Shown here one piece after another: positions 8,881 to 30,804 of a stretch of 64,000 nt of DNA. The position numbers and the translations under genes are program-made. The stretch comes from Ignavibacteria bacterium. GTDB taxonomy: Bacteria; Bacteroidota; Ignavibacteria; UBA10030; SZUA-254. Below the pieces are notes generated by a model. The model was not told the origin of the DNA. It saw only the letters and a program-made list of their open reading frames with translations, and did no database searches. Each line of letters begins with the position of its first letter. The first letter of the stretch is position 1. The DNA lies in contig JACOSY010000020.1 of assembly GCA_016178595.1 (NCBI GenBank), positions 1 to 64,000 on the forward strand, in the 5' to 3' direction.

Positions 8881-10421
<1,541 letters not shown>

Positions 10422-10979: not shown

Positions 10980-10986
<7 letters not shown>
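10913..10986 (+). other. 5' arm of the 23S processing stem
   Basis: This stretch pairs with 14038-14105 beyond the 3' end of 23S. TGAATCAATAAA and GGTTAAG face CTTAACC and TTTATTGATTCA, and farther out GTCAAAGGCG, GACATC and GATGCATC face CGCCTTTGAC, GATGTC and GATGCATC. Such long stems are the normal RNase III substrate that releases pre-23S rRNA. Confidence 0.75.
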
Positions 10987-14046
<3,060 letters not shown>

Positions 14047-14166
14047 TTATTTTTTATTGATTCACCAGCGATGTCGCTCGCCTTTGACAGGTCGGGATGC
14101 ATCATCGTGAACGAACATTGATTGTAGTAGTAGCGGCGCTACAACGCCACAGACCCTTCCAAGTTT

Positions 14167-14285
14167 TTCTGGCGACTATACCGCGGGTGAAACTCCTCTT
14201 CCCATACCGAACAGAGCAGATAAGCCCCGCAGGGCCGATGGTACTATACTGGTGACGGTATGGGAGAGTAGGTCGTTGCCAGGAG
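14167..14285 (+). rRNA. rrf: 5S ribosomal RNA
   Basis: About 119 nt. The terminal stem is TCTGGCGAC with GTTGCCAGGA. The conserved loop B/C segment CCCATACCGAACAGAGCAGATAAGC-type and the GGCCGATGGTACTATACTG block are recognisable. Its last ~65 nt recur as repeats elsewhere in the window (see 21707, 19369, 29969, 15199). Confidence 0.93.
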
Positions 14286-14294
14286 TTATTGTGA

Positions 14295-14331
14295 AATCCC
14301 ATCTCGAAGAAATTCGGGATGGGATTTTTTG
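14295..14331 (+). terminator. rrn terminator (module T1)
   Basis: The stem ATCCCATCTCGAA pairs with TTCGGGATGGGAT around a GAAA loop and is followed by six T. It is a textbook intrinsic terminator ten bases after 5S. Degenerate copies occur at 17053 and 23100 after other genes. Confidence 0.85.
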
Positions 14332-14332
14332 T

Positions 14333-14389
14333 GGTAGGACAGAAGTCCCCTTCTGTCCACACCGGACAGGACAGGAGTCCTGTCCTACC
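14333..14389. repeat. Palindromic module M, copy 1
   Basis: GGTAGGACAG at one end is the reverse complement of CTGTCCTACC at the other, and each half carries its own small hairpin (GGACAGAAGTCC, GGACTCCTGTCC type). The same element occurs at 15315, 17100, 21783, 23146 and 38592, making it a dispersed intergenic family. Confidence 0.8.
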
Positions 14390-14396
14390 GTATTAG

Positions 14397-14433
14397 AGCC
14401 TCGCTTGAATTCCAAGCGGGGCTTTTGTATTTT
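14397..14433 (+). promoter_or_regulatory. Module T2: hairpin with embedded promoter-like boxes
   Basis: GCCTCGCTTGAATTCCAAGCGGGGC folds into a hairpin followed by TTTTGTATTTT, which looks like a terminator. The same bases contain TTGAAT (14405-14410) and TATTTT (14428-14433) with a 17-bp spacer, so the element may also fire transcription into the HEPN-like gene at 14457. A near-identical copy precedes the FAD oxidoreductase at 21889. Confidence 0.55.
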
Positions 14434-14456
14434 CATAATTATTTGAGGATGGCGTC

Positions 14457-15152
14457 GTGGAAGAGAGAAATCTGACAAAGGAAGAACTTAGTGCAATGGA
14501 AATTGTTTACCAATTCATAGCGCAAGTAAACAATATTTATGCTCTTTATTTTGATACGTTGCATGGTCTACAGCAAATCCGAGCAGACTTGATTAGACGT
14601 CAAATCGATGAGGCAAACAAACATCCCCTAGAAGACCGCGAAAAAATTCTAGAAGAGTTTGATAAAGCTTGGTGGGGATATGTACACGGTCCCCCAACTT
14701 CTGACGAAAATTGGGATCTTCATAGCACGATGAAAGAATTCAAAAAGAGAAATGCCGATGGTGGATTGAACCAGAGGCTTCTGAGTAATCTCTGCTTGGC
14801 TACCATTTACCAGCTATGGGAAGATTATTACAGAGACAGAATTGCTGAGGCTTTCGGTGTAAGAGGCGCGCAAAGAAAAAACTCCGTTAGTAGTAATATG
14901 ATGGGAGATATTAGGCGTCTTCGGCATTCGATCATCCATCATAATGGTGTTGCGAAAAAAGAGATTCTCAAGAATCAGATATTAGAATGGTTCAAAGAGG
15001 GCGATGATATATTTATTGATCAGAATAAAATGCGTGAAATCGTTAATTACATTAGAGATGAATTTGAAATTCAAGTAACGAGAGAGAGAACAGACACATA
15101 TCGTTTCCATCGCTCTCCATCAAGCCTGAAACCACCAGACAAACCTCGGTAG
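14457..15152 (+). CDS. HEPN-like hypothetical protein
   Basis: 231 aa, predicted soluble and mostly helical. Start is GTG at 14457 with TTGAGGA eight bases upstream; the nearby ATG at 14449 is out of frame. Near residue 160 the segment DIRRLRHSIIHHNG contains R-x4-H (RHSIIH), the signature of HEPN-type ribonuclease helices found in toxins and defence proteins, and an upstream helix (NLCLATIYQLWEDYYRDRI) fits the HEPN pattern. This assignment is from the motif only. No antitoxin gene is adjacent. The base composition is more AT-rich than the neighbours, and the gene directly follows the rrn operon and its T2 module, so it may be an insertion. Confidence 0.65.
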   Translation: MEERNLTKEELSAMEIVYQFIAQVNNIYALYFDTLHGLQQIRADLIRRQIDEANKHPLEDREKILEEFDKAWWGYVHGPPTSDENWDLHSTMKEFKKRNADGGLNQRLLSNLCLATIYQLWEDYYRDRIAEAFGVRGAQRKNSVSSNMMGDIRRLRHSIIHHNGVAKKEILKNQILEWFKEGDDIFIDQNKMREIVNYIRDEFEIQVTRERTDTYRFHRSPSSLKPPDKPR

Positions 15153-15198: not shown

Positions 15199-15371
15199 GA
15201 GCAAAATATATCCGGTCGTTGCCTGTCCCAACTCAATAAATAAAACTCTGAAGGCGACGATTCTCCCACAGGGACGGCTTCGCCGGAATCGTCGCCTTCG
15301 CAAGGTTGGTTTTTGGGAGGACAGAAGTCCTCTTCTGTCCACACCGGACAGGACAGGAGTCCTGTCCTACC
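15199..15371 (+). repeat. Mosaic repeat: 5S-end fragment, long hairpin, module M
   Basis: It begins AAAATATATCCGGTCGTTGCC, matching the 19510-19530 copy and the 5S end GGTCGTTGCCAGG. It continues with a perfect 14-bp hairpin (GAAGGCGACGATTC at 15250-15263 against 15286-15299) and ends with module M (15315-15371). It fills the gap between the HEPN-like gene and the next promoter, and no gene is visible. Confidence 0.65.
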
Positions 15372-15391
15372 GATCATTTGCATTTCAGATA

Positions 15392-17009: not shown

Positions 17010-17052
17010 TCCGAGCTGCGGGAGTTGCAGCCCTCACGCCTACGACTGATTG

Positions 17053-17163
17053 AAAACCCTATCTCGAAGAAATTCGGGATGGGATTTTTATTTTAAGATG
17101 GTAGGACAGAAGTCCTCTTCTTTCCATCGAGTGGACAGGACGTAGTCTCCGAAGGAGTCCTTC
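17053..17163 (+). repeat. Mosaic repeat: T1 terminator plus degraded module M
   Basis: CCCTATCTCGAAGAAATTCGGGATGGG and the T run (17053-17091) copy the rrn terminator T1 with a few changes. GGTAGGACAGAAGTCC onward (17100-17163) is a decayed module M. It lies between the convergent moaD-like and barrel genes and may work as their terminator. Confidence 0.65.
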
Positions 17164-19368: not shown

Positions 19369-19676
19369 AAGTTTTTGCGCTACAGACCAGATAGGCTCCC
19401 GACGTAGTCGGGACCGATGGTACTTATGGGCGACGGTCCCGCCAAGAACAGGCGGGATTTCGTGCTGCAAAAAGGCACCACTCAATATGGGAGTCCCGCA
19501 TACGCAGGATAAAATCCGGTCGTTGCCAGTCCCAATCTGACTGAACTTAGCTCTCTTTGCTAAGTTCATTGTTGAATTGAGGATCCCGCTGAAAGCGGGA
19601 GAGTTATTTTGAACTCGCCGCTTTTTGGCGGGGAGTTGTTGTTAAGAGCCTTGCTCGAATCTGAGCGGGGCTTTTC
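19369..19676 (+). repeat. Degenerate 5S-derived mosaic with several hairpins and T2-like end
   Basis: AAGTTTTT, CAGATAGGCTCCCGA, GGACCGATGGTACTTATGGG, CGACGGT, TATGGGAG and CCGGTCGTTGCCAG follow the order of the 5S gene with short insertions between them (19369-19531). Then come three hairpins (TGAACTTAGC/GCTAAGTTCA, ATCCCGCT/AGCGGGA, AACTCGCC/GGCGGGGAGTT) and a T2-like end AGAGCCTTGCTCGAATCTGAGCGGGGC (19646-19671). The remainder of the 750-bp gap shows no convincing gene. Confidence 0.6.
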
Positions 19677-21113: not shown

Positions 21114-21707
21114 ATGTCCATGACACGCATTGTATTTTTATTATCCATTCTGTTGGTCTGGGCTTGTCCATCTCTCCACGCTCAGTCGGTCAACCAGCCA
21201 GGCTCGGATCCAGCGGAGGAGCAAGAATCCGTGGAGAACGAGCTCTCAAGTTCTGAAGAAGTAGTCAGCATGCCCGCTATCTACACCGCGACAGCAGGCA
21301 CGTTTGAGAGTGCGGGTCGAGTGATTCTCTCTTCAGATGAGTTTGTCATGAGGGAAGGCACATCGAATGATCTTGGGCAGCAGGCACTGCTTCACGCTTC
21401 GCCAGTGAGCTTTGCAATGTATCAAAACTATCCCAACCCATTCAACCCGTCAACTACGATCCAGTTTGATCTTCCCGATCCAGCATTCGTGACCGTGAAA
21501 GTCTACAACATGCTCGGGCAGGAAGTGAGGACACTACTGGATCACGAGTCGATGGAGGATGGTGAACAGGAAGTCGATTTCGATGCGAGTTTGCTTGCTT
21601 CAGGTGTTTACTTCTACCGCATTGTTGCGGAGGGAAATCCGAACGAAGAGGATGGAGTTCCAGCACAGAAATACACCGAAGTGAAGAAGATGTTGCTGGT
21701 GAAGTGA
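21114..21707 (+). CDS. Secreted protein with T9SS type-A-like sorting tail
   Basis: About 197 aa. It has a signal peptide (TRIVFLLSILLVWACPSLHAQ) and a C-terminal domain YQNYPNPFNPSTTIQFDLP...VYNMLGQEVRTL...LASGVYFYRI, the type IX secretion sorting domain of the FCB group. ATG at 21114 or 21120 is served by AAGGAG; the second has better spacing. Between signal and tail lie only some 90 residues with no recognised fold, so this is almost a bare sorting module. It follows the S74 gene by 16 bp and is likely its operon partner. The stop codon borders a 5S-derived repeat. Confidence 0.85.
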   Translation: MSMTRIVFLLSILLVWACPSLHAQSVNQPGSDPAEEQESVENELSSSEEVVSMPAIYTATAGTFESAGRVILSSDEFVMREGTSNDLGQQALLHASPVSFAMYQNYPNPFNPSTTIQFDLPDPAFVTVKVYNMLGQEVRTLLDHESMEDGEQEVDFDASLLASGVYFYRIVAEGNPNEEDGVPAQKYTEVKKMLLVK

Positions 21708-21770
21708 GCCCCGCGGGCCGATGGTACTATACTGGTGACGGTAGGGGAGAGTAGGTCGTTGCCAGGAGTT
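21707..21770 (+). pseudogene. 5S rRNA 3'-end fragment (truncated copy)
   Basis: AGCCCCGCGGGCCGATGG onward repeats the last ~65 nt of the 5S gene at 14223-14285 with only about two single-base differences, including the GGTCGTTGCCAGGA end. The 5' half of 5S is absent, so it cannot make functional 5S. It abuts the TGA of the T9SS-tail gene and is followed by modules M and T2. Confidence 0.85.
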
Positions 21771-21782
21771 TTTTGTTTTCGG

Positions 21783-21839
21783 GGTAGGATAGATTTCCTA
21801 ATCTGTCCACAGGGGACAGGACAGGAGTCCTGTCCTACC
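21783..21839. repeat. Palindromic module M, copy downstream of the 5S fragment
   Basis: GGTAGGATAG...CTGTCCTACC matches the copy at 14333-14389 with a few substitutions in the first half, and the second half is identical. Order and orientation relative to the 5S fragment and T2 are the same as behind the real 5S gene. Confidence 0.8.
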
Positions 21840-21847
21840 GTTTTAGA

Positions 21848-21883
21848 GCCTCGTTTGAATCTCAAGCGAGGCTTTTGTATTTT
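21848..21883 (+). promoter_or_regulatory. Module T2, second copy: hairpin plus promoter-like boxes
   Basis: GCCTCGTTTGA/TCAAGCGAGGC forms a hairpin with a TTTTGTATTTT tail. TTGAAT (21855-21860) and TATTTT (21878-21883) have a 17-bp spacer, and TATTTT ends five bases before the ATG at 21889. Transcription from it would start at about the ATG itself. Confidence 0.55.
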
Positions 21884-23049: not shown

Positions 23050-23099
23050 AAGGTTTTTGGAATAAGTATCCGAGATGCTTCTTGTGGAAGAGACATTTG

Positions 23100-23244
23100 A
23101 AAATTCCGTCTCAATTCAATTCGGGATGGGATTTTTATTTAGAGCGGTAGGATAGATTTCACAATCTGTCAATACAGGGATAGATGGGAATCTCCGTTCC
23201 GAAGGAATGGCTTCGCCAAAGGAGTCCTTCGGGCCTATCCTACC
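23100..23244 (+). repeat. Mosaic repeat: decayed T1 plus expanded module M
   Basis: The segment AATTCGGGATGGGATTTTTATTT (23118-23140) is the 3' part of T1. GGTAGGATAG (23146) to CTATCCTACC (23244) is a module M whose centre has grown. It lies between the convergent FAD oxidoreductase and cytochrome genes. Nothing else is recognised in 23050-23331. Confidence 0.6.
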
Positions 23245-29873: not shown

Positions 29874-29968
29874 CGTATTTCCGACAAGCCTTGTTGATAA
29901 TGTACGCTTTCAATTCATATAATTCAAACTGTAAACGGGAGAGTTTCTTCTCTGCCTCTTTCGAAGAG

Positions 29969-30138
29969 AGCGGATAAGCCCCGACTGAATCGGGACCGAT
30001 GCGTGTCCGTCATTGGTAGAGGCGTTATTCTAAAGTTTCGTCACAAAGTGATCTGCCGAAGGTCCCACAGGAATGCCCTTGGCACAATCCTTTGGAACCT
30101 TCGGGATTTGAATCTCAAGCGAGGCTTTTGTATTTCAT
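29969..30138 (+). repeat. 5S-derived fragment with T2-like end
   Basis: GCGGATAAGCCCCGA...CGGGACCGATG (29969-30001) resembles the 5S segment CAGATAAGCCCCGCAGGGCCGATG with a small insertion. Near 30054-30107 lies a hairpin CCGAAGGT...ACCTTCGG. TTTGAATCTCAAGCGAGGC and its T-rich tail (30107-30136) equal the second T2 copy, but the 5' arm of the T2 hairpin is lost. The flanking genes are both on the minus strand. Confidence 0.6.
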
Positions 30139-30156
30139 CATGGTTGGTTGCAATGA

Positions 30157-30804
30157 TTATTTCTGCTTCCCGTAATACTCACACACCGGATTCATCGGGC
30201 ATTCGGGACAATGCGGGTTTGTCGGTCGGCAGATTTCTCTTCCGAGAAACGTCAGACTCATTCCCAACTCTCTCCAATATTTCTGCGGAATCGTTTCCAT
30301 CAACTGCTTCTCGATTTTTTCCGGAGTTGTTCCTATAGCGATTCCAAGCCGGGGAACGACACGGAGTACGTGGAGATCGACAATCACTCCTTCCATCTCA
30401 CCGCCCGATTCACTGATGATGACGTTGGCGGATTTTCTCCCAATGCCCGGAAGTGCGATCAGTCTTTCCATCGTTGTCGGGATGCTCTTGTCGTCCTTCA
30501 CGGTTTTTGCCAACGTTACCAGCCACGCTGCCTTGTTCACAAAATTTGTGATTTTTCCGATGAAAGGGTACAAGTCTTCCGGCTTTGCGGCTGCAAGCGC
30601 TTTGATCGAAGGATATTTTTGAAACAGCGCAGGCGCAAGGGCGTTGATGTTTCTATCCGAATCCCTCGCCGAGAGAATCACCATGACCGTTAACTGGTAG
30701 CAGTTCTGATGCTGGAGCGGGTGTTTCCGTCCCGAATATTTTTTGAAGAGCGGCTTCAAGGCTTGAAGCCAGTCGATAGTGCGACGAGACTTTTCTTTCG
30801 CCAT
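30157..30804 (-). CDS. nth: Endonuclease III (DNA glycosylase/AP lyase)
   Basis: 215 aa. The helix-hairpin-helix LPGIGRKSANVII with catalytic Lys124, VIVDLHVLRVVPRLG with catalytic Asp143, and four cluster cysteines (C192-x6-C199-x2-C202-x5-C208) identify the enzyme. It removes oxidised pyrimidines and cleaves the abasic site. LSARDSDRNIN replaces the more usual LSAQTTD-type loop. It stands alone, with AAAGGAATTCACACA before the start. Confidence 0.93.
   Translation of the reverse strand: MAKEKSRRTIDWLQALKPLFKKYSGRKHPLQHQNCYQLTVMVILSARDSDRNINALAPALFQKYPSIKALAAAKPEDLYPFIGKITNFVNKAAWLVTLAKTVKDDKSIPTTMERLIALPGIGRKSANVIISESGGEMEGVIVDLHVLRVVPRLGIAIGTTPEKIEKQLMETIPQKYWRELGMSLTFLGREICRPTNPHCPECPMNPVCEYYGKQK

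Follow-up and report, generated by a model that had tools for sequence, protein, structure and literature searches.

How did the end of a 5S rRNA gene come to lie behind a protein-coding gene? In the window (the whole 64,000-nucleotide stretch of Ignavibacteria DNA analysed here), a sequence-only reading had noticed a 5S tail with its downstream modules behind a gene with a T9SS tail, and had likened it to the 5S-derived SINEs of eukaryotes. The observation itself is confirmed, and the array is somewhat larger than was claimed, with T1 + M copies and a relic on another contig (C42) to be added (Table 1). The source is a complete rRNA operon (16S at 8881-10415, two tRNAs, 23S at 10980-14047, and the 5S gene), which is the only one found in the assembly and whose 5S is the sole one above the Rfam cut-off in the 64-kb window. 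Behind it stand a terminator-like hairpin (T1), a palindrome pair (M) and a second terminator-like hairpin (T2); the core of T1 (14297-14324) has the TCCC...GGGA ends of two further palindromes, P and E. The first gene after the operon (14457-15152) gives a weak HEPN-like match (RiboL-PSP-HEPN, E=0.15) and, as far as its sequence suggests, possibly encodes a defence or toxin-type RNase.

Table 1. The rRNA operon end, its displaced copies and neighbouring landmarks (positions in the window unless a locus or contig is named).
Feature	Position	Strand	Remarks
Intact 5S rRNA gene, end of operon	14168..14284	+	Rfam RF00001, 100 bits
T1, terminator-like hairpin	14294..14330	+	
M, palindrome pair	14335..14390	+	GTAG...CTAC ends, REPIN-like
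T2, terminator-like hairpin	14395..14433	+	
Oldest-looking fragment	15210..15372	+	~12 nt of 5S 3' end (GGTCGTTGCC) and M copy at 15310-15372 (95%)
T1 + M copy	17038..17147	+	Without 5S
5S relic split by P	19369..19529	+	P at 19397-19413, 19437-19457, 19494-19509; ends GGTCGTTGCCAG
E element	19530..19600	+	TCCCAATCTGACTG...GCGGGA, exactly between 5S ...GCCAG and 3' flank GAGTTATT (19601-)
T2 copy of the 19369 relic	19636..19676	+	
5S tail behind T9SS-tail gene	21707..21883	+	5S nt 57-117 and 3' flank, then M and T2; without T1, E or P
T1 + M copy	23066..23170	+	Decayed
Old 5S relic	29936..30141	+	5S from ~nt 17, with T2; adjoins nth
nth-like endonuclease gene	30157..30804	-	Landmark common to relatives
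Gene X, protein-coding	L075:58-897 (G004); G023:C37:13748-13876		No Pfam or PADLOC match

The copy that raised the question is the youngest of those in the window. It begins immediately 3' of the TGA of the T9SS-tail gene and matches positions 56-266 of the query 14168-14434 (E=2e-42), with 97% identity over 59 ungapped nt in its 5S part, which bears out the description of a 5S tail with M and T2; the claim that all window copies share the plus orientation holds as well. The decayed versions reported near 19369, 29969 and 15199 are all present, the last amounting to just ~12 nt of 5S end plus M. At 29936 the 5S similarity is faint (nhmmer E=0.003) and T2 follows ~120 nt further on (30108-30135, E=0.002). 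The left ends of the 5S copies vary, from nt 57 at 21707 to about nt 50 in the relative G009 and about nt 17 at 29936. The 19369 relic contains a 71-nt E copy placed after the last 12 nt of its 5S sequence, and the normal flank restarts directly behind it. In a simple scan, this relic contains three TCCCG...CGGGA-type palindromes in ~160 nt, whereas the remainder of the window has only about six, among them T1 itself and another inside 23S. MAG-like contigs, and the fact that rRNA operons assemble badly, would favour an assembly artefact or a chimeric contig. However, divergence from the gene ranges from 3 to over 40%, the copies sit within one long contig with intact genes between them, and they recur independently in other assemblies, all of which makes an artefact barely credible.

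The sequence-only reading also had the element spreading away from the operon. A search of the whole genome (3.1 Mb, 61 contigs) found 5S-tail, T1 and T2 copies almost only in the 16 kb downstream of the operon on its contig (C19), together with one old relic at C42:344-480, and no target-site duplications could be seen by eye around 21707, 19369 or 29936. What stands of that reading is that the end of the rRNA operon has been copied repeatedly in operon orientation and that transposon-like sequences are involved; what falls is the dispersal of the 5S tail. Because the copies lie near the operon only, save C42, and most genomes of the order yield a single 5S match, the tail is not a dispersed element in this genome. 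It shares a 5S origin with the 5S-derived SINEs of eukaryotes but differs in being neither dispersed nor flanked by target-site duplications and in having no tail of its own. It is the palindromes that are dispersed, M and P but most of all E, with M by itself found on many contigs and on both strands. None of the viral contigs searched showed the 5S-tail pattern. For the original finding, a puzzling bacterial SINE is replaced by a local, traceable process, and greater interest now attaches to the E family and its link to structural RNA genes.

An old 5S-derived element that once spread by copying and is now low in copy number would nevertheless account for relics not known to lie near an operon (C42, and those beside nth in the relatives G004 and G005). 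It would also account for an insertion, ...GGCGGGATAAAATCC|GGTCG, common to the 19369 and C42 relics of this genome (G000) and to G005 and G033, with close variants in G003 and G004. The lack of 5S-tail copies other than C42 in 3.1 Mb, the single 5S match of most genomes of the order, and the failure to find target-site duplications or common element ends all speak against it, and the common insertion may stem from a target preference, as for E. I consider such an element decidedly unlikely. A palindrome ending GGCGGG(A/G)TAAAATCC stands right before GGTCG or GGACG in the relics of G000, G005 and G033, with close variants in those of G003 and G004, and may reflect either common descent or target preference. 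On C42, a decayed fragment that resembles by eye the C-terminus of a tyrosine recombinase lies on the minus strand beside the 5S relic (L310:137-268), and at about L310 60-130 there is an insertion-sequence-end-like stretch resembling sequence near the G005 relic.

Displaced 5S ends are not peculiar to this genome, as they also occur in G003, G004 (JACQVI010000235.1), G005, G009, G023 and G033, all from the same clade (Ignavibacteria). In G003 a second 5S end with an older T1 lies right behind the first, ahead of a kinase gene whose counterpart in the congener G011 directly follows 5S-T1. G023 carries an additional 5S+T1 copy with P, P, E and P insertions, G033 has tandem 5S ends, and G009 has a displaced 5S end between two protein genes. 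In both G004 and G005 a 5S relic lies on the same side of nth as the 29936 relic does here. Not every tail can be an orthologous relic beside nth, since in G009 nth adjoins an FAD oxidase gene with no relic between; the nth-side history is therefore not simple. In G005, nth is reduced to its C-terminal third, beside the 5S relic near a contig end (L165:5902-6138). Gene X was found in two of 100 genomes, each from a separate family of the order, and lies beside a displaced 5S relic both times. G028, tried as the empty site for G023, is not a clean one, since by eye it seems to keep a remnant of gene X'. Tandem 5S genes at the ends of rRNA operons are known, for example rrfD/rrfF of E. coli, and the likeness is the additional 5S copy beside the operon end. 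The extra copies here, however, are pseudogenes and are separated by genes and palindromes.

The gene-block boundaries fit the main rival explanation, namely that an integrase, or else recombination with rRNA-linked DNA from outside, placed blocks of genes one after another into the 3' end of 5S. Each block would bring its own 5S end and push the old one downstream, as genomic islands do at tRNA genes. Each block between 14434 and 30141 is bounded by a copy of the operon tail in one orientation, and both the restriction of gene X to sites beside 5S relics and the recombinase-like fragment next to the C42 relic agree with such a history. It sits poorly with the finding that T1, M and T2, which are outside the gene, are repeated too, that the nearest relics are not the youngest, and that the extra copies in G033 and G023 are short, with no cargo between them and the gene. 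No integrase was noted in the gene blocks of C19 or with the array, in what was an unsystematic look. Islands at tRNA 3' ends likewise leave the RNA gene intact and a 3' piece of it displaced, but the units here are ~100-360 bp and 3' fragments do not outnumber 5' ones. On balance I judge serial insertion unlikely, if well worth keeping in mind.

E was found in 77 copies in 36 of 98 genomes of the order, at about 1-9 copies per genome, and none was found in genomes of the phylum sampled outside it; E is thus confined to this bacterial order among the genomes searched. The 58 distinct sequences form a stem of 21 pairs with TCCC...GGGA ends, with pairing at nearly every position in 90-100% of them; two to four pair types are in use at most positions, with many compensatory pairs and strong covariation. 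Most of them have AGTCCC at the foot, others a variant such as ACTTCC, and no match to Rfam was reported. For its surroundings 60 E loci were fetched, chosen by BLAST score and, where the genomes are related, not independent of each other; 39 contain a tRNA gene and two a 5S gene. Control sequence holds 0.024 tRNA per 1.45 kb, and therefore only ~1.4 of the 60 would be expected to contain a tRNA. To the left of E, the junction agrees with tRNA or 5S sequence for 10 nt or more in 43 of 65 cases, as against 12 of 265 random sites, and these junctions fall at discrete points (tRNA nt 10-11, 15-16, 36, 47, 52 and 74-75; 5S nt 115).

A typical locus starts with tRNA nt 1-15, followed by E and by the 4-9 nt with which the tRNA continues; a spacer of other sequence (~8-40 nt) then leads to an intact tRNA. 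Tandem arrangements (L237, L247, L282, L235) and a 3' type with E directly behind the tRNA end (L244, L262, L263, L272, L277) occur as well. The junctions are clean and lack target-site duplications, for example CTCAG^E^TTGG and GCCAG^E^GAGTT. Of the dispersed palindromes, P and E are found inside or beside 5S and tRNA copies; M as an element targeting RNA genes was rejected, with a tRNA in none of 21 M loci. Similar duplications are present at some protein-gene ends (L240, L248). By eye, L240, L250 and L273 (G053, G080) have E in duplicated 5' ends of Ser/Thr kinase-like genes, so E is not limited to RNA genes. The tRNA loci also bear on the idea that the 5S ends are gravestones of deleted extra rRNA operons. 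Their single orientation, their 5S ends of varying length and the one operon left would suit that idea, but tRNAs show the same partial-copy pattern, and no 16S, 23S or ITS similarity exists elsewhere in the window, which renders it highly improbable.

The copies and where they lie are established, as are the E hairpin family, the points at which it joins its neighbours, and its link to tRNA and 5S genes. The best explanation, which I hold with modest confidence, is that the copies between 15210 and 30141 derive from the 3' end of the one rRNA operon, have been displaced and are decaying, and that insertion of P and E is one recurrent cause of such copies in this order. The 5S end and terminator would have been duplicated several times beside the gene; the extra ends would then lose function, gene blocks would come between them, and old relics would be inherited. 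P and E, with their TCCC...GGGA ends, would enter structural RNA genes at set positions (tRNA nt 10-16 in the D-stem/D-loop, nt 47, the tRNA 3' end and 5S nt 115) and leave no target-site duplication, after which the palindrome would sit in a partial gene copy beside an intact gene. A single-strand (HuH/Y1-type) transposase may move them. Replication, in turn, may run a few nt beyond the inserted hairpin and then switch back to an uninterrupted template further upstream, which would produce precisely the order fragment, E, stub, intact gene. The 21707 copy, though lacking E and P, may have arisen in the same way.

Local duplication is favoured by the confinement of 5S-tail, T1 and T2 copies, all in plus orientation, almost wholly to the 16 kb downstream of the operon. 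The explanation also draws on the displaced 5S ends of relatives, on the E family with its stem and its RNA-gene junctions, and on the cluster of P palindromes inside the 19369 relic. The C42 relic, away from the operon, tells against it. The 21707 copy has no E or P, and between it and the 5S gene stand genes and older-looking relics spanning 7.4 kb; simple duplication next to the gene therefore does not account for it, nor does the age of the relics rise steadily with distance. Template switching, for its part, does not predict that the left fragment starts almost exactly at nt 1 of the mature tRNA, as it does in several cases. In L226, L229, L237, L245, L247 and L264, the partial tRNA left of E starts no more than a few nt from the mature 5' end, and the upstream leader differs.

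A broader proposition can be put forward tentatively, and I would not yet wager on it: an undescribed, order-specific hairpin family in Ignavibacteria may target fixed tRNA and 5S points, with its insertion coupled to a rebuilt intact target; on this view the same process, acting on rRNA, would have produced the displaced 5S tails. If true, essential RNA genes would survive the insertion of these elements and arrays of RNA-gene fragments would be left behind, which would explain the pseudo-tRNA and pseudo-5S clutter that confuses annotation. If they are harmless through gene rebuilding, a tiny mobile element would have found a novel means of living in the most conserved genes. With the E family there is concrete material on which to test single-strand transposition at natural hairpins.

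Among known kinds, E may be set beside REP, MITEs and the Rickettsia palindromic elements (RPE). The open-licence literature yielded no paper on a named family, or on palindromes aimed at tRNA or 5S genes with partial copies, in this group. With MITEs it shares the character of a non-autonomous inverted-repeat element, but E has no target-site duplication, just 4-nt TCCC/GGGA ends and a single long covarying hairpin. RPE, like E, are palindromic insertions inside genes; they lie in-frame within ORFs (PMC3733652), whereas E lies in a redundant partial RNA-gene copy beside an intact one. REP palindromes have a GTAG/CGTC foot (PMC3733652), and it is M, with its GTAG...CTAC ends, that resembles REPIN. 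E lacks such a foot, is low in copy number and lies at tRNA and 5S genes with partial gene copies. Nevertheless, E resembles the REP/REPIN system with its RAYT (Y1_Tnp) transposases in being a small palindrome with no target-site duplication seen, and in the company it keeps: Y1_Tnp genes are present in 34 of 36 genomes with E and in 39 of 62 without (Fisher p=0.0006, a value uncorrected for kinship). As Y1 transposases are common in the order, this co-occurrence is weak evidence. The genome studied here has ten Y1_Tnp (REP-type) transposase genes, on C8, C34, C42 and other contigs.
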